A stretch of DNA of 64,000 bases, taken from the NCBI GenBank assembly GCA_025965155.1, contig JAOPXN010000122.1:1-64000 (forward strand), written 5' to 3'. Both the position numbers and the translations under genes were made by a program. Numbering within the stretch: the first letter of the stretch is position 1; each line of letters begins with the position of its first letter. The stretch comes from Propionibacteriaceae bacterium. GTDB taxonomy: Bacteria; Actinomycetota; Actinomycetes; Propionibacteriales; Propionibacteriaceae. A model generated the notes under the pieces. That model saw only the letters and a list, made by a program, of their open reading frames with translations. It was not told the DNA's origin and did not search any database. This document shows positions 33,690-55,177 of this stretch, in pieces.

Positions 33690-35708
33690 TCAGCTGGTGA
33701 AGCGGCTTCCGGACAGGCTTGTTGGCAGCGTCTGAGCCGGCTGCAGCCGACCGGCGCCCGCACCCGCGTAGAGCACGAGCTGGTCGCTGGAGTCCCGTGC
33801 GAGCAGGTCCGCGACGCCGTCACCGCTGAAGTCGCCCACCGAGGCAAGATCCGCCGATGCTGCGAGGCTGTCGTCCAGGCGGACGGGACTGCCGAACGAG
33901 TTCGCCGCGCCCGGGTGGAGGTAGACCGCTGACCCCTGGCGAGTCACAAGATCGGGTCGTCCGTCACCGGTCATGTCGCCCGGGCTGCGGAACCCGTGCC
34001 GGTCCGACCATCCCGCGGCCAGCTGGGCGAAGCCGGTGTAGCCAAGGGCGCCGTTGCCGTGGACGACGTACAGGTTGCCGGCGACGCTGAGCACCACCAG
34101 GTCCGGACGGCCATCGCCGTTGAGGTCGCCGATGCCGGTGACCTCGGTGTGGTTGCTTCGCAGTCCCAGGTCCACCCCGGCCAGCAGAGCGGTCGAGGCG
34201 GTTCCCCGGAACAACAGCAACCGTTCCCCGGGAGTGCGGGCGATCACGTCCTGGAAACCGTCACCATCCCAGTCACCGACGTTGACCACGTGGGTGAACG
34301 GAGCGAACCCGGTCCGCAGCGTCCGTGGCAGCGACACCATACCGGTCGATGAGACCGGGTACCGCACCAGCGTGTCGGCCCGCACCGCCAGCAGGTCCGC
34401 GGCCGAGCTGGAGTACCGGCGCGGGAACGCACCGTACGCGGGGTTCGGTGAGCCGGACACCGTGAACAGGGCGGACCGCAGCCCGAAGGCGAACCGGAAC
34501 GCCGGCCCGGTGACCGTGCTGGCACCGGTACTTCCGATGATCTTGATCGAGGTGACCCGGCCACCGAACCGGCCGAATCCGTCGCGGCTGAGAACCTGGA
34601 GCTGGCGGATGGTGCCGAGAGTGGGGTAGGCCTGCTTGACCATGGCGGTGGTCAGCGCGACGGACCACGACTGGGATTTCGCGACCCCGTCCCACGGGTC
34701 CGGCTGCGCCGTCAGATACGGCAGCGACCCCGGTGCGGAATGGCCGCCGTTGGAGGAGGAGAACTGGGTCAGCGCGATCTGGCCGGCGTGGCTGAGAATC
34801 TTGCCGCTGGTGGCTTGGACCGCGGCCGAGCCGGCAGCCGTCTCGTGCACCGTCCGGATGCCGGCGGTGGTGGTGGCGAAGCCGCGGTACACCTGACAGG
34901 CCACGGTGTCGCAGACATCGAAGAAGGCACCGGCGCCGGTCTGGGACTGGAGACGGGCGGCGAAGGTCCGAGCGGCCACCGCCTGAGCCTGCACTGCCTG
35001 GGCCGGCCACGACGTCGGCATCTCGGACGGAACCACCGACCGGAGGTAGTCCTCCATAGTCAGCCGGTTGGTGGTGATGGCGCCGCCACCGGACCTGATC
35101 AAGGACACCTGGGACCGGAGCTCCTGACGGACCCCACCGGGCAGCCGGATCTTGATCATCTTGGCGGTGTTCTCGTACGTCCAGATCGCGGTCGGGCTCA
35201 GCGGTGGGGTGATCGCGACCCAGGTCCCGGACGGGTTGAGGTAGCGGAGCCCGTACCCGGTGCTGGTCCGGACCGTCCGCCACCGGGTGTACTTGGCACC
35301 GACGGGGAGCGGATAGGTCCTACCGCTGGCGCGGTCGTTGAGCCGTAGGCCGGCGGAGGGATAGACCTGGAGGTCGTTGTCGTTGTCGGCGGTGATCTGG
35401 ACCCGGATGGTCCGTCCTGGATCCCGGCTGGTCACCGTGGTGCCGGGGTAGTAGAAGCCCATCATCTGCTGCCAGGTCTTACCCAGCGTGGCTGCCCCGT
35501 ACGCCCCGTACTGCGACATGCCGATCCCGTGCCCGTAGCCGGCCCCGGAGACGGTGAAGACGCCCCGCGTTGGCCACACCGGCTGGGCTGCCCCGGCCGG
35601 TGACCAGCCCGGCGGGCCGGTCAGCAGGAAAGCGGCGACGAAGGTGCCGAGCACCGCCGCTGGAAGGAGCCGACTCCGGTGCGAAGCCCGGTCTGCGTTG
35701 GTGACCAT
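33690..35708 (-). CDS. Secreted SpoIID-domain protein with FG-GAP/VCBS repeats
   Basis: A 672-residue exported protein. A signal peptide (LLPAAVLGTFVAAFLLTG, cleavage near AGAAQP) is followed by the SpoIID-associated motif GAGYGHGIGMSQYGAYG and, near residues 215-250, the SpoIID core MEDYLRSVVPSEMPTSW then AQAVQAQAVAARTFA. SpoIID domains act on, or stimulate amidases acting on, peptidoglycan. From about residue 450 to the end are several repeats with the calcium-loop pattern DWDGDGFQD, DLNGDGRPD, DMTGDGRPD and DFSGDGVAD, forming a likely beta-propeller. The organism class is not known to sporulate by endospores, so a wall-remodelling role is inferred. It ends two bases from icmA, convergently. 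Confidence 0.85.
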   Translation of the reverse strand: MVTNADRASHRSRLLPAAVLGTFVAAFLLTGPPGWSPAGAAQPVWPTRGVFTVSGAGYGHGIGMSQYGAYGAATLGKTWQQMMGFYYPGTTVTSRDPGRTIRVQITADNDNDLQVYPSAGLRLNDRASGRTYPLPVGAKYTRWRTVRTSTGYGLRYLNPSGTWVAITPPLSPTAIWTYENTAKMIKIRLPGGVRQELRSQVSLIRSGGGAITTNRLTMEDYLRSVVPSEMPTSWPAQAVQAQAVAARTFAARLQSQTGAGAFFDVCDTVACQVYRGFATTTAGIRTVHETAAGSAAVQATSGKILSHAGQIALTQFSSSNGGHSAPGSLPYLTAQPDPWDGVAKSQSWSVALTTAMVKQAYPTLGTIRQLQVLSRDGFGRFGGRVTSIKIIGSTGASTVTGPAFRFAFGLRSALFTVSGSPNPAYGAFPRRYSSSAADLLAVRADTLVRYPVSSTGMVSLPRTLRTGFAPFTHVVNVGDWDGDGFQDVIARTPGERLLLFRGTASTALLAGVDLGLRSNHTEVTGIGDLNGDGRPDLVVLSVAGNLYVVHGNGALGYTGFAQLAAGWSDRHGFRSPGDMTGDGRPDLVTRQGSAVYLHPGAANSFGSPVRLDDSLAASADLASVGDFSGDGVADLLARDSSDQLVLYAGAGAGRLQPAQTLPTSLSGSRFTS

Positions 35709-39454: not shown

Positions 39455-41089
<1,635 letters not shown>

Positions 41090-41185
41090 AGCCCTCATTC
41101 TGCCCATATCCACGCCGGTCGGGCCAGGATGGACCGAGATGTCCCAAGTTCGCCGACCGGCCGCGGCTTTGACAGGATGGACGGC

Positions 41186-43037: not shown

Positions 43038-45482
43038 TCAGCTGGTCGGCGTACCAGGTTCGCCCGGCTCAGCCGCCTTCTCCGCCGCAGTGCGCTTGGC
43101 CCCGGTGCGCTTGGCCGGAGCCTTCTTTGCCGCCTTCTTGGCCGGGGGCTGCTCGGCCGCCGGCTCGCCAGACTCTGCCACTGCCTCGGCGATCTTGCCG
43201 GCCGCCTTGGCCACCTTCGACGCCGCCGCCTTGGTTGCCTTGGCGGCGGCCTTCACCGGTACCGTCTCCGACGCCCTCTCTGCTGCCGACGAGGCTTTCT
43301 TGGCCGGCTTCGCGGCCGCCTTGGCTGTCTTGGCCACGGCCGCCTTGGCGGTCTCGGCCGTCTTGGCCGTCTCGGAGGCTGACTTCTTCGACGGGGCTTT
43401 CGCCGGCTTGGACCGGACCTGCGTCTCCGGCGGCACTTCCGCTGCCGACGGCACCTCGACGGCCGCCGCCCGGTTGGTGGCCGGCAGATCGTCGGCAGCG
43501 GTTGACCGGTGCGGCGAGACCTGCTTGGCGGCTGCCCGCATGCCAGCCGACGCCTTCTCCGGCTCGGGCTGCTCTTCGGTGAGCACCGGCTCGAACAGGA
43601 GCCAGACGGCACCCAGCGGCGGGATCGTCACGTTGGCCGATGCAGCGTAGCCGTGCCAGGGGACGGCGGTGGCCTCGACCTGCCCGAGGTTGCCGGTCCG
43701 GCCGGTGCCGTCGTACACCTCGGCATCGGTATTCAAGATCTCCTTCCAGACGCCTTCGGTCGGCAGGCCGATCCGGTAGTCCGGCCGCGGCTCGGCGGAG
43801 AAGTTCACGATGCTGGCGATCATCTGCCCGTCGCCGTCGTAGCGCAGGAAGGAGAAGATGTTGCCGCCCCGGTCATCGGCGTCGATCCAGGAGAACCCGG
43901 CCGGATCGGTGTCGAGCTTGTAGAGCGCGGGGTGCGACTTGTAGATCCCGTTCATGTCCTTGATCAACCGCTGCACGCCGCGGTGACCCCACTGGTTGGT
44001 CAGATCCCAGTCCAGGCTGCGGCTCTCGGCGAACTCCCTGCGCTGGCCGAACTCGGTGCCCATGAAGAGCAGCTGCTTGCCCGGATGGGACCACTGGAAC
44101 GCGTAGAACGCCCGCAGCGTGGCGAACTTGCGCCACTCGTCCTCCGGCGCACGCTCGAACATCGAGCCCTTGCCGTGCACGACCTCGTCATGACTGATCG
44201 GCAGGATGAAGTTCTCCGAGTACGCGTACGCCATGGCGAACGTCATCTCGTGATGGTGGTACTGCCGGTAGATCGGCTCGCGACCGTAGTAACGCAGCGA
44301 GTCGTTCATCCAGCCCATGTTCCACTTGAAGCCGAACCCCAACCCGCCGTGCTCGACGGGGCGGGTGACGCCCGGCCAGGAGGTCGACTCCTCGGCCACC
44401 ATGATGGTGCCTGGCAGCCGCCGGTAGTTGTGGGCGTTGGTCTCCTGCAGCAGCTTCACCGCCTCCAGGTTCTCGTTGCCGCCGTACTGGTTCGGGATCC
44501 ACTGGCCCTCCTCGCGGGAGTAGTCCAGGTAGAGCATGGATGCGACGCCGTCCACCCGGAGGCCGTCGATGTGGTACTCCTTCAGCCAGTAGTAGGCGTT
44601 GGACATCAAGAAGCTCTTCACCTCGTTGCGACCGAAGTTGAAGATGTAGGAGCCCCAGTCCGGATGCCAGCCAAGACGCGGATCCTCGTGCTCGTACAGG
44701 GCGGTGCCGTCGAAGCGCTGCAGCGCCCACGGGTCGGTGGCGAAGTGGCCGGGCACCCAGTCCACGATCACGCCGATGCCGGCCTGGTGCAGCATGTCCA
44801 CCAGGTGCCGGAACTCGTCCGGTGATCCGAACTTCGACATCGGGGCGAAGTACCCGGTGACGTGATAGCCCCACGAGCCCTCGAACGGGTGCTGCGCGAC
44901 CGGCATGAACTCGACATGGGTGTAGCCCTGCCAGGAGCAGTACTCGACCAGCTCCTTGGCAAGATCGAGGTAGGTCAGCCCCTTGCGCCAGGACCCGATG
45001 TGCACCTCATAGACGCTCATCGGCTTGGCGTGCGCCTGGGCCTCTCCGCGGTACCACATCCACTGGTCGTCGCCCCACTCGTACTGGGTGTTGTACACGA
45101 TCGAGGCGGTGTGGGGGGCGGCTTCGGCGAACTGGGCCATCGGGTCGGCCTTCAGCCGCCAGACATCGTCGGCGCCCAGCACCTCAAACTTGTACAGCGA
45201 GCCGGTGCCGACTCCCTCGACGAACAGAGCCCAGACCCCGGCGCCCGGAATCAGGTGCATGTAGGAGTTCTCACCGTTCCACCAGTTGAAGTCGCCGACC
45301 AGCCGTACGGCTTTCGCGTTCGGCGCCCAGACGGAGAAACGGGTACCGGAGACCTCGCCGCGCTCGTCGTCGTGGACCGTCATCTCGCGGGCGCCGAGCC
45401 GCTCCCAGACCTCCGTGTCGTGGCCCTCGTGGAAGCCCGTCAGATCCCAGCCGGTCAGTCCGCCTGTGGGGTCGTAACCCAT
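43038..45482 (-). CDS. glgB: 1,4-alpha-glucan branching enzyme with histone H1-like C-terminal tail
   Basis: Creates alpha-1,6 branches in glycogen. The 814 residues include one CBM48 module ([23 protein letters not shown]), the GH13 barrel with nucleophile in [16 protein letters not shown], the acid/base glutamate in [11 protein letters not shown] and [13 protein letters not shown], and the C-terminal beta domain ending near residue 635. A further 179 residues (43038-43577) are rich in Lys, Ala and Pro, with [20 protein letters not shown] and [16 protein letters not shown], like histone H1 or HupB tails; ordinary GlgB stops before this. The extra N1 module of mycobacterial GlgB is missing. 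The ATG at 45482 has AAGGAG upstream and lies two bases after mak. Confidence 0.95.
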
Positions 45483-45484
45483 TG

Positions 45485-46939
45485 TCACTCCTTGTTTCTC
45501 GACGCCAGAGAGGGCACATCGTCGCCCTCCGGCGTATGGCTCAGGTTCGCTACTGCGGCGAGTGGGATGCTTACCCAGTCCGGACGGTTCCGCACCTCGT
45601 AGACGACTTCGTAGACCGCTTTGTCTGCTTCGTACGCGCGCAGAACGGCGGCATCGGCGGCACTCAGACCGCCACCCGCGTAGCCCTCCAGGAATGCCGA
45701 GCGGCAGGCAGCCGACCAGGCGTCGCTGTGCGGGCCCGGGACGGTCGCGGCGGCGTAGTCGAAGGAGCGCAGCATGCCGGCGATGTCGCGCCAGACGTTG
45801 TCCGGCTCGGCCCGCTCCGCCAGAGCTTTGACCGGTTCTCCCTCGAAGTCGATGATCTTCCAGCCGTCGGGGGTCCGTAATGTCTGCCCCAGATGGAAGT
45901 CGCCGTGCAGCCGCTGGGTGGCCAGGTCAGTTCCGCCCAGGACGTCGAACGCCTGCTCCAGACCCTGCAGATGCGGCTGCAGCGCGGGAGCGATGGCCGC
46001 AGCGCGTTCCAGCCGCTGTTTCATGATCTCCGCAACCCGGTCCCCGGGCACAGTGGAGGTGGGGAAGTGCTCACGCAGGGCAGCGTGGATCTCGGCCAGG
46101 GCGCGACCCAGCTTCCAGGCATCGTCGGCGAAGGTGGACCCGGCCCGGTCGTCCGCGGTGGCTTCGTCTCGCCGTAGTGAGTCAAGTGCGAGGCCCCAGC
46201 CGTCCTCGGCCGCAGGAAGCTTCGCCACCACCATGGCCAGGTCGGAGGTGACGATCTGCGTGCCGGCCTGGCCGGCGAGGCGCTGCGGCCACGACGCCTC
46301 GACCCAGCCGAACAGCTGGGCCACGTCCGCCACACCGGCACGGCTGAGCGCGTCGTGCACCTCGATGTCCAGGTTGTGACCGATCTCGAGCCGCCGGAAC
46401 AGCTTCATCATGGCCACATCGCCGAACATCACCGAGGTGTTGCTCTGCTGCCCGGTGAAGATCTGGGGAACCAGGTCGGCGTCCAGTCCACCGGCGCTGC
46501 TGAGCCGGAACCGAACCGACGTGTCGTCGGCGGCGGCGCGGCGCTCCTCGAGCAGCATGCCAACCAGGTGCTGGCACGCCTCAGGGTCCTGCATCGCGTC
46601 GTACACCACCACCGGCCCAAGGTCTGGATCGGTGAACCGGCCAATCTCGGCGTGTTGAAGGCCCGGCTGCGGCGCCGGCCGATAGGACAGGGCCAGCTGG
46701 TAGAGCTCGTGCTCCTCAGTGCTCGGCTGTTCCGATGGGTCGTCTGGATCTTGGTCCACGGCGTAGCCAATCTCGGCAACTTCGAACCGGACAGCCGGCC
46801 AGGTGGCGACCTCGGTCAGCCAGGGCAGCGGAGTGACCTCGATCAGCTCCGCCAACCGGCCCTTGCCCGCAAACCAGCGCGCACTGGTGATGTAGCTGAC
46901 CAGCTGCTGTGCGGCCTCTCGGTCGGTCGTCGGGCTCAT
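45485..46939 (-). CDS. mak: Maltokinase
   Basis: Phosphorylates maltose with ATP to maltose-1-phosphate, the donor for GlgE. The 484 residues have the N-terminal cap ([10 protein letters not shown]) and a kinase-like C-domain. The catalytic loop [11 protein letters not shown] and the metal-binding IIDFEGEP are both intact, as is [16 protein letters not shown] for nucleotide contact. It sits between glgE and glgB. In most actinobacteria a trehalose synthase (treS) is fused or adjacent; none is here, only a 180-base gap before glgE. The ATG at 46939 is supported by alignment to MSP-type N-termini. Confidence 0.93.
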
Positions 46940-47119: not shown

Positions 47120-49249
<2,130 letters not shown>

Positions 49250-49403: not shown

Positions 49404-49409
49404 GTGCGC

Positions 49410-51989
49410 GTGCGCGCTATCCGTAGATTTACCGTGCGTCCGGTCCTCCCGGACGCCCTCAAGCCCCTGGCCGACCTGGCCCTCAACCTCCGCTGGGCCT
49501 GGCACCACGACACTCAAGAACTGTTCGCCGCGGTTGACCCCGAGCTGTGGGCCTCCACCGGAGGGGACCCGGTCAAGCTGCTGGCGGAGGTTTCGGTCGA
49601 GCGGCTGCAGAAGCTCGCCAAGGACCGCAAGTTCGTGCGGCGGCTGGAGATGGCCCGGGCGGACCTCGCCGAGTACATCAACGGCGACCTCTGGTACCAG
49701 GGCTACGCGGCCGAGACCAAGGACGCACCGAAGGCGATCGGCTACTTCTCGCCCGAGTTCGGCATTACTGAGGTGCTGCCGCAGTACTCCGGGGGCCTCG
49801 GGATTCTGGCCGGTGACCACCTGAAGGCGGCCAGCGACCTCGGCGTACCGATCATCGGCGTCGGGCTGCTGTACCGGCAGGGCTACTTCAAGCAGTCGCT
49901 GAACTCGGCCGGCTGGCAGCAGGAACGGTATCCGCTGCTGGATCCCAACGACCTCCCGCTGAGCCTGCTGCAGGACGAGAACGGCCCGGTACGGATCGAG
50001 CTGCCGCTCGCCGGCCGCACGCTGTACGCCCAGGTCTGGGTGGCGCAGGTCGGCCGGGTGCCGTTGCTGCTGATGGACTCCGATCTGGAGCAGAACTCCG
50101 GGGCGGAGCGGGAGACCACTGACCGGCTGTACGGCGGCGGCATCGACCATCGGCTGGCGCAGGAGGTGCTGCTCGGCATCGGCGGGGTCCGGGCCATCCG
50201 CGAGTACTGCCGGATCACCGGCGCTGCCGCGCCCGAGGTGTTCCACACCAACGAGGGACACGCCGGATTCCTTGGCCTGGAACGGATCCGTGAGTTCATA
50301 GACGCCGGTCTGGACTTCGACACCGCTTTGGAGCGGAGCCGGGCCGGAACTGTCTTCACCACCCATACACCGGTGCCCGCCGGCATCGACCGGTTCCCGC
50401 GCGAGCTGATCATCGACCAGTTCGCCTCCTTCGGCGCGCTGCCGGTGGATCGGGTCCTGGCGCTCGGCGCCGAGGACTATGAGGGCGGCGACAACAGCAA
50501 GTTCAACATGGCGGTGATGGGGTTCCGGCTGGGCCAGCGGGCCAACGGGGTCTCGTTGCTGCATGGCGAGGTGTCGCGGGAGATGTTCCACGGCCTGTGG
50601 AGCTCCTTCGACACCAGTGAGGTGCCGATCGGCTCAATCACCAACGGCGTGCACCACCAGACCTGGGTCCACCATGAGCTGTTGGACCTGCTGGAGAGCT
50701 CGTCCAACAAGGACACGGTGATCGACGGCTACGACTGGGCCGGGCTGTCCTCGGTCGACTCCAAGACCATCTGGTCGCTGAAGCGCCGAATGCGTGCCGA
50801 CCTGATCGCGATGACCCGGACCAGGCTGGCCGAGAGCAGCGCCAACCGGGGCATCTCCTCGGACTGGGTCGGTGGCGCGCTGGACCCGGACGTGGTCACC
50901 TTCGGGTTCGCCCGCCGGGTGCCGTCCTACAAGCGGCTGACCCTGATGCTGCGCGACCCCGAACGGCTCAAGGCACTGTTGACCGACCCGGAGCGACCGA
51001 TCCAGATCGTGATCGCCGGCAAGGCGCACCCTGCCGACGAGGGTGGCAAGGCGCTGATCCAGCAGCTGGTTCAGTTTGCCGACTCAGCGGAGGTCCGCGA
51101 GCGCATTGTCTTCCTGCCGGACTACGACATCGGGATGGCTAAGCCGCTCTACCCGGGCTGCGACGTCTGGATGAACAACCCGCTGCGCCCGTACGAGGCC
51201 TGCGGAACCTCGGGCATGAAGGCCGCGCTTAACGGCGCGGCGAACCTGTCGATCCGGGACGGCTGGTGGGACGAGTGGTTCGACCCGGCGTTCGGCTGGG
51301 AGATCCCGTCGGCGGAGGGGGTCGACGATCCCGACCAGCGCGATGATCTCGAGGCGCGCGCCCTGTACGACATCATCGAGAACGAGATCGTGCCCCGCTT
51401 CTACGACGTGGACAGTAACGGCCTGCCGCAGCGGTGGATCCAGATGATCAGGGACACCGTGGCCGGTCTCGGCCCCAAGGTGCTGGCTTCGCGAATGGTG
51501 CGCGACTACGTCACCAAGCTCTACACCCCGGCGGCTGAGTCCTCGCATGCGATCGACGGCACCCCCGCGGCCGCGGCGGCGCTGGCGGAATGGAAGCACA
51601 AGGTGCGGTCCAGCTGGCACGCTGTCGGCGTCGACCACGTGGAGAGTCTCACCGGTGATGCTGTCGAGGTCGGTACGAAGATCCACGTCAGCGCTCTGGT
51701 CCGGCTCGGCAACCTCAGCCCCGAAGACGTCCAGGTCCAGCTCATCACCGGCCGGGTGGACAGCGAGGACGGGCTGAGCGACACCATTGTCAGCCCGTTC
51801 CCGACCGGCGTTGACCAGGCCGGCGGTCTGCGCCGGTACGAGGGCTGGGTGGAGGCGAATCGCTCCGGCACCATCGGGTACACGGTCCGGGTCGTGCCGC
51901 ACCACGCCGAGCTGGCGAACGTGGCCGAGATGGGACTCTCCGCGGTGCCCTCGGAAGTTCCGGCCCCGCCGTCCGCGTCGCAGAACTGA
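49410..51989 (+). CDS. glgP: Glycogen/alpha-glucan phosphorylase (GlgP, GT35)
   Basis: Releases glucose-1-phosphate from the ends of alpha-glucans using phosphate and pyridoxal phosphate. The 859 residues match the long actinobacterial/archaeal-type alpha-glucan phosphorylase (TIGR02094-like): RFTVRPVLPDALKPLADLALNLRWAWH at the N-terminus, FSPEFGITEVLPQYSGGLGILAGDHLK, VFHTNEGHAGFLGLERIREF, and the PLP/phosphate region RPYEACGTSGMKAALNG with NLSIRDGWWDEWF. The C-terminal 100 residues form a beta domain. Two GTG codons (49404, 49410) are possible; 49410 fits the leaderless promoter. It is divergent from glgE. Confidence 0.94.
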   Translation: MRAIRRFTVRPVLPDALKPLADLALNLRWAWHHDTQELFAAVDPELWASTGGDPVKLLAEVSVERLQKLAKDRKFVRRLEMARADLAEYINGDLWYQGYAAETKDAPKAIGYFSPEFGITEVLPQYSGGLGILAGDHLKAASDLGVPIIGVGLLYRQGYFKQSLNSAGWQQERYPLLDPNDLPLSLLQDENGPVRIELPLAGRTLYAQVWVAQVGRVPLLLMDSDLEQNSGAERETTDRLYGGGIDHRLAQEVLLGIGGVRAIREYCRITGAAAPEVFHTNEGHAGFLGLERIREFIDAGLDFDTALERSRAGTVFTTHTPVPAGIDRFPRELIIDQFASFGALPVDRVLALGAEDYEGGDNSKFNMAVMGFRLGQRANGVSLLHGEVSREMFHGLWSSFDTSEVPIGSITNGVHHQTWVHHELLDLLESSSNKDTVIDGYDWAGLSSVDSKTIWSLKRRMRADLIAMTRTRLAESSANRGISSDWVGGALDPDVVTFGFARRVPSYKRLTLMLRDPERLKALLTDPERPIQIVIAGKAHPADEGGKALIQQLVQFADSAEVRERIVFLPDYDIGMAKPLYPGCDVWMNNPLRPYEACGTSGMKAALNGAANLSIRDGWWDEWFDPAFGWEIPSAEGVDDPDQRDDLEARALYDIIENEIVPRFYDVDSNGLPQRWIQMIRDTVAGLGPKVLASRMVRDYVTKLYTPAAESSHAIDGTPAAAAALAEWKHKVRSSWHAVGVDHVESLTGDAVEVGTKIHVSALVRLGNLSPEDVQVQLITGRVDSEDGLSDTIVSPFPTGVDQAGGLRRYEGWVEANRSGTIGYTVRVVPHHAELANVAEMGLSAVPSEVPAPPSASQN

Positions 51990-53014: not shown

Positions 53015-55177
<2,163 letters not shown>

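Follow-up and report, generated by a model that had tools for sequence, protein, structure and literature searches.

The results presented here establish that the glycogen branching enzyme (GlgB) encoded in the 64,000-nucleotide stretch of DNA under analysis, hereafter the window, carries a 179-residue C-terminal extension rich in lysine, alanine and proline, and that this tail is coding, weakly constrained and subject to high turnover. Tails of this type are known, and what we describe is a real addition to a common enzyme, with a narrow distribution. By analogy with PhaF and AlgP, we tentatively put forward a reading in which the tail, specific to this lineage, would tether the enzyme electrostatically to DNA, RNA or polyphosphate.

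GlgB and its alpha-glucan gene neighborhood

The glgB gene (43038..45488, minus strand) encodes 816 residues plus a stop codon; it has a GTG start codon and a 4-base overlap with the end of pep2. Its product matches the curated NCBIfam equivalog model for GlgB (NF003811) over the full length of the model, at residues 15-630 and with 917 bits against a cut-off of 741. The body of the enzyme (residues 1-637; 43578..45488, minus strand) comprises CBM48, alpha-amylase and Alpha-amylase_C domains, the last placed by a Pfam search at residues 534-631, and homology to GlgB stops at about residue 630. The gene is found in the company of other alpha-glucan genes, namely those for the maltokinase Pep2 (45485..46939, minus strand; PF18085 Mak_N_cap and PF01636), the maltosyltransferase GlgE (47120..49249, minus strand; PF11896 and PF21702), an alpha-glucan phosphorylase (49404..51989, plus strand; TIGR02094, 748 bits), the debranching enzyme GlgX (53015..55177, minus strand; TIGR02100, 860 bits) and phosphoglucomutase (pgm; 39455..41113, minus strand; TIGR01132, 866 bits). 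Judged by these matches, the surroundings of glgB are a GlgE-type alpha-glucan cluster and GlgB is a normal branching enzyme. Elsewhere in the window, at 33690-35708, a protein combines a SpoIID domain with FG-GAP repeats, a pairing that is unusual to our knowledge.

Composition and layout of the tail

The extension covers residues 638-816 and the stop codon (43038..43577, minus strand) and is set apart from the body by its composition and by AlphaFold2 pLDDT values below 50; the coordinates, strand and length given for it in a first-pass annotation of this DNA were exact. Also as described there, the tail is rich in lysine (14.5%), alanine (31.3%) and proline (10.1%). It further contains 10.1% glutamate and 1.1% aspartate (11.2% acidic residues in all), and these 20 acidic residues bring the net charge down to +13, or 0.07 per residue. 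The body has 2.8% lysine and a net charge of -33, and the whole protein a net charge of -20. With 26 lysines in the 179 residues of the tail and 18 in the 637 of the body, the enrichment is about five-fold (binomial P about 1e-11 for at least 26 lysines of 179 at the body frequency). Most tail lysine codons (24 of 26) are AAG, and the DNA of the stretch has a GC content of 64-72%. Across all stop-to-stop frames of at least 80 residues in the window, the tail alone reaches 8 or more lysines per 60 residues, and the same scan detected no lysine-rich tail on the other alpha-glucan enzymes of the window. Sequence searches with the tail matched neither a Pfam family (E<=0.01) nor a chain in the PDB (E<=1).

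The layout of the tail is uneven. It opens with an acidic-to-helical proximal segment of 23 residues (638-660; 43509..43577, minus strand), delimited by a pattern that recurs in the tails of the genus, continues into a Lys/Glu/Ala zone (704-772; 43173..43379, minus strand) and closes with a short polybasic end of 17 residues (783-799; 43092..43142, minus strand). By eye this last stretch is the most similar to H1 or HupB, and it sits inside the 30-residue span with the highest charge in the tail (+7).

Comparison with histone H1-like tails of the same genome

The first-pass annotation had likened the tail to those of histone H1 and HupB and had described KAAKKAP-type repeats in it. The likeness holds for the Lys/Ala/Pro-rich, low-complexity and probably disordered character of the C-terminus, but fails for the strong, nearly acid-free cationic charge of H1-like tails. 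The description of repeats is generous: the exact KAAKKAP motif occurs once, in a stretch of 12 residues. For regular repeats of the AKKA/KPAA type the picture is equivocal, with one stretch of 11 residues and a degenerate remainder (KAAAK/AKTAK). The genome itself provides the measure: its HupB (L211) has a 181-residue Lys/Ala/Thr-rich tail with a net charge of +42 (0.23 per residue), and the last 65 residues of its TopA (L183), a tail of lysine repeats, carry +21 (0.32 per residue). Since both are far more strongly H1-like, 'histone H1-like' overstates the GlgB tail of the window on compositional grounds, and is a better fit for two of its relatives. All three tails are of the same low-complexity, Lys/Ala-rich type, but those of TopA and HupB are borne by proteins that act on DNA and are almost without acidic residues, whereas the GlgB tail is a polyampholyte. 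The TopA tail itself matches the H1-like HC2 model below threshold (24 bits, cut-off 40), and HU tail length in the genus, as read from L193, L209 and L211, ranges from none through 12 to 181 residues. Lysine repeats of actinobacterial TopA, Ku and HupB are reported to act on DNA.

Descent of the tail from a paralog was considered and set aside, as a query with its last 125 residues matched only itself in the genome, with 150 of 321 candidates scored and low-complexity queries being poorly served by such searches. Under the same restriction, the tail of a relative used as query retrieved the TopA of this genome weakly (E 0.10), so that other lysine-tailed proteins may have escaped both queries.

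The tail is coding sequence under weak constraint

The host belongs to the genus Microlunatus, of which 20 genomes were searched; 19 provide a complete GlgB C-terminus, and L016, which reaches a contig end, was left out. All 19 continue for 24-179 residues past the GlgB body before reaching a stop codon. In the nearest relative (L002) the body is 89% identical and the homologous tail 46% identical, with a tail pN/pS of 0.52. Counted from residue 631 onward, pN/pS of the post-body region is 0.45-0.71, and thus below 1, in all 7 pairs compared, three of which come from one trio, with values of 0.13-0.31 for the bodies; the lengths of tail gaps in these comparisons are uninformative, because proteins were aligned. 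The homologous L002 tail, its pN/pS and the read-through in the relatives together rule out a frameshift or a sequencing or assembly error as the source of the tail, an explanation to which we assign next to no probability. Of the two ways in which the first-pass annotation had foreseen that its claim might fail, a frameshift thus does not apply, and absence from close relatives gives way to presence in part of the genus.

Distribution in and beyond Microlunatus

A search of 40 genomes, including that of the host, recovered GlgB in 39. Within Microlunatus, lysine-rich tails (at least 11 lysines) are present in 7 of the 19 complete members (L001, L002, L004, L005, L006, L010 and L012), and 11 of the 19 have a basic patch, defined as a 30-residue span with a net charge of at least +6; it is made up mainly of arginine in L009 and L019 and mainly of lysine in some others. 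L005, which we take to be M. phosphovorus NM-1, and L012 carry 0.27-0.28 net charges per residue over their last 60 residues, like the HupB and TopA tails of the host genome, and their repeats are clearly regular by eye. At the other end of the range, L014, L015, L018 and L020 have short tails of 24-35 residues, the tail of M. parietis (L015/L031) being a stub of 24 residues. The tails of L003, with its SPD repeat, and L017 are strongly acidic overall, and L008, which groups with full support as sister to the lysine-tailed L006 and L010, has an 80-residue tail with a net charge of -5. The proximal segment, roughly E..EP..vEAGtRAAAKqaSP, was found in 13 of 19 members by a loose pattern count, and GlgB of L015 and L020 terminates at its end.

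When 30 GlgB bodies are placed on a maximum-likelihood tree, some of whose deeper forks are weak, the lysine-rich state requires at least four changes over the 29 scored rows, and the lysine-rich pairs L001/L002 and L005/L012 lie apart.

Outside the genus, nearly all sampled relatives are without a Lys/Ala-rich GlgB tail. In the other genera of the family, a basic patch occurs in 1 of 52 complete tails (L132), from a set of 53 loci picked by score or, in most cases, for the length of their open frame among 166 matching non-genus genomes; L133 (open) was excluded from this set, and L139 (a duplicate of L023) had been removed before the count. Among tails of at least 50 residues, the patch is present in 11 of 15 within the genus versus 1 of 6 in the other genera of the family. 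Additional family contigs (L032-L034, L036 and L037, with L035 open) showed no basic patch; at least two of these, L033 and L034, duplicate contigs that were already counted as L156 and L174. Beyond the family, none of 78 complete tails has a basic patch (80 loci, L040 and L071 being open, and the measured 'tail' of L091 taking in part of the C-terminal domain). A sample of the class, 60 loci taken among the better-scoring of 213 matching genomes with the two Microlunatus set aside, likewise contained none (0 of 60), with a highest patch of +3 and a highest lysine count of 1. Species may overlap between the genus, family, beyond-family and class sets.

Several other lineage-specific C-termini were observed. 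One Microlunatus subgroup (L014, L017, L018 and L019) has no proximal segment and shares instead a start of the form EHPV(D/E)(D/N)P..VL.EIAGS(V/I)A or similar. L003 and L032, from two genera, both have SPDSPD-type C-terminal repeats, presumably through independent slippage expansions. In another genus of the family (code g18; L151, L158, L159, L167, L172 and L174, the last being the Propioniciclava sinopodophylli contig L034), an acidic variable linker precedes a near-constant GlgB end; of the 11 g18 loci read, 5 finish with DVEASE and 1 with DVQASE, a possible short docking motif. Lastly, the acidic tails of three actinobacterial GlgBs, L065 (Microbispora rosea), L255 and L257, end in EGLVAE(S/L) after a variable linker, again a lineage-specific peptide.

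Predicted structure and helix phasing

An AlphaFold2 model was computed from a 30-row alignment (mean pLDDT 72.7, pTM 0.74); as the alignment holds no close homolog of the tail, its prediction there amounts to single-sequence evidence. The body is mostly confident, apart from patches of low pLDDT (203-207, 391-395 and 404-421), whereas residues 637-816 are all below a pLDDT of 50, with ten-residue means of 26-46 past residue 640. Together with the sequence comparison, the model indicates that the tail is probably disordered. Weak helices appear in it at 646-655, 704-739 and 746-772. Charged residues gather on one helix face in 704-739 (shuffle p 0.0008) and 746-772 (p 0.0034), segments chosen for this analysis since the model had helices there and hence subject to selection bias; phasing was absent at 646-655 (p 0.15) and over 700-772 taken as one helix (p 0.44). 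The less biased per-tail maximum showed phasing in L001 (shuffle P 0.020), L004 (0.002), L006 (0.002) and L010 (0.006), and none in L002 (P 0.19), L005 (0.87) and L012 (0.59). There thus seem to be two sorts of lysine-rich tail, a helix-prone polyampholyte that includes the tail of the window and an unphased KKTPAKK polycation in L005 and L012.

Possible functions of the tail

Polyanion binding by the GlgB tail is plausible in view of proteins whose lysine-rich tails have roles at storage granules (AlgP, PhaF, HBHA) or on DNA (TopA, HupB, HBHA). In Pseudomonas aeruginosa, the KPAA C-terminus of AlgP is reported to be needed for even spacing of polyphosphate granules (PMC9239181). This storage-polymer protein has a Lys/Ala/Pro-rich, predicted disordered C-terminal domain similar in length to the GlgB tail (195 aa, including a 154-aa repeat region); it differs in its net charge of +55 and its many regular KPAA repeats, and that source does not present it as an enzyme (PMC9239181). 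PhaF of Pseudomonas putida, a carbon-store protein, has a lysine-rich tail that binds DNA and is disordered when alone (PMC3574117; reviewed in PMC13052382), but it coats hydrophobic polyester granules and has an amphipathic N-terminal helix in place of an enzyme; its counterpart in P. aeruginosa has a net charge of +35 (PMC9239181). In the mycobacterial, and hence actinobacterial, heparin-binding hemagglutinin (HBHA), a helical part leads into a tail that is rich in Lys, Pro and Ala, contains AKKA motifs and is reported to be required for lipid inclusions (PMC6176652) and for DNA binding (PMC10665949); the protein has 198 residues and a methylated tail, and is not expected to be homologous to GlgB. 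PhaM, PhaF and AlgP have been reviewed together as nucleoid tethers, in a review on granule positioning in which the word 'glycogen' does not occur (PMC13052382). Of the two contacts that such a tether makes, the one with the storage polymer follows for GlgB from its enzyme family, and the one with the nucleoid would be made by the tail.

From these analogies we infer polyanion binding by the tail, its partner and its effect on the position of glycogen, which together make up the likeliest single function, at less than even odds. The tail's Lys/Ala helices, together with its polybasic end, would bind polyanions (nucleoid DNA, RNA or polyphosphate) weakly and with no sequence preference, and the avidity of many GlgB molecules per glycogen particle would keep growing glycogen near or among them, much as the lysine-rich tails of PhaF and AlgP are supposed to do on granules of PHA and polyphosphate, respectively. 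Selection would then retain net basicity and flexibility rather than sequence. PPK1 is present in 20 of 20 genus genomes, which makes polyphosphate a possible ligand; being there irrespective of the tail, it does not single polyphosphate out, and a link between tail and polyphosphate capacity was dropped as non-discriminating.

Several results count against such a tether. The tail of the window carries only 0.07 charges per residue on a protein of net charge -20, and its identity to the nearest relative falls from the 89% of the body to 46%. As reconstructed on the tree, the changes in the lysine-rich state also tell against it, as do the net-negative tail of L008, the acidic tail of L003 and the stub of M. 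parietis. The placing of glycogen through polyanion binding, as proposed in the first-pass annotation, is thus supported in part: with a polyampholyte tail much weaker than those of HupB and TopA, a protein that is net negative and several species whose tail is short or acidic, the evidence stops short of a conserved role. Because not all of the genus keeps a lysine-rich tail and that of the window is only modestly charged, the possibility that the tail is a loosely constrained disordered arm with no dedicated partner, having an entropic or solubility role, growing by repeat slippage and drifting in charge by lineage, follows closely, as a serious if also doubtful alternative. The fast turnover, stubs and acidic tails inside the genus, the acidic tails of other genera, the higher pN/pS of the tails and low-complexity repeats such as DQVGDQVG (L019), SPDSPD (L003) and EVKETAGKAVD (L006) are all in line with this explanation; lysine enrichment within a GC-rich stretch, the concentration of basic patches in Microlunatus among the longer tails and helix-phased charge in 4 of 7 lysine-rich tails argue against it.

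The same phasing would fit an arrangement, which we regard as unlikely, in which helices of the Lys/Glu/Ala stretch, amphipathic or coiled-coil in nature, oligomerize GlgB or dock it on another protein or a surface, the basic end being secondary. The model helices at 704-739 and 746-772 and the 11-residue repeats of L006 point the same way, but the helices are of low confidence and three of the seven lysine-rich tails lack phasing. Less probable again is that the function lies in the proximal segment, as a docking helix for, e.g., GlgE or glycogen synthase, with the variable lysine-rich part as a by-product: the segment recurs in most of the genus and GlgB of L015 and L020 stops right behind it, yet it is missing in L007, L009, L014 and L017-L019, and model confidence there is low.

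Significance

Given its very fast change between species, the tail could also do little. A lysine-rich tail on GlgB was not found in the open-licence literature, including passages of a review on alpha-glucan enzymes (PMC11046441), and although nucleoid tethers with histone-like tails are described there for some bacterial PHA and polyphosphate granules, none was found named for glycogen. In E. coli, glycogen condensates and the nucleoid are reported to exclude each other (PMC12706056). If the tether to polyanions extends, in part of Microlunatus, to a GlgB that also anchors glycogen on the nucleoid or on polyphosphate granules in the manner of PhaF or AlgP, a more specific proposal that we consider rather improbable, glycogen would not be pushed off the DNA as in E. 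coli (PMC12706056), and carbon and phosphate stores would be held together. A basic-tailed GlgB in Microlunatus, to which the polyphosphate accumulator M. phosphovorus belongs, forms together with its tail-less orthologs a natural set for asking whether cells control the position of glycogen.
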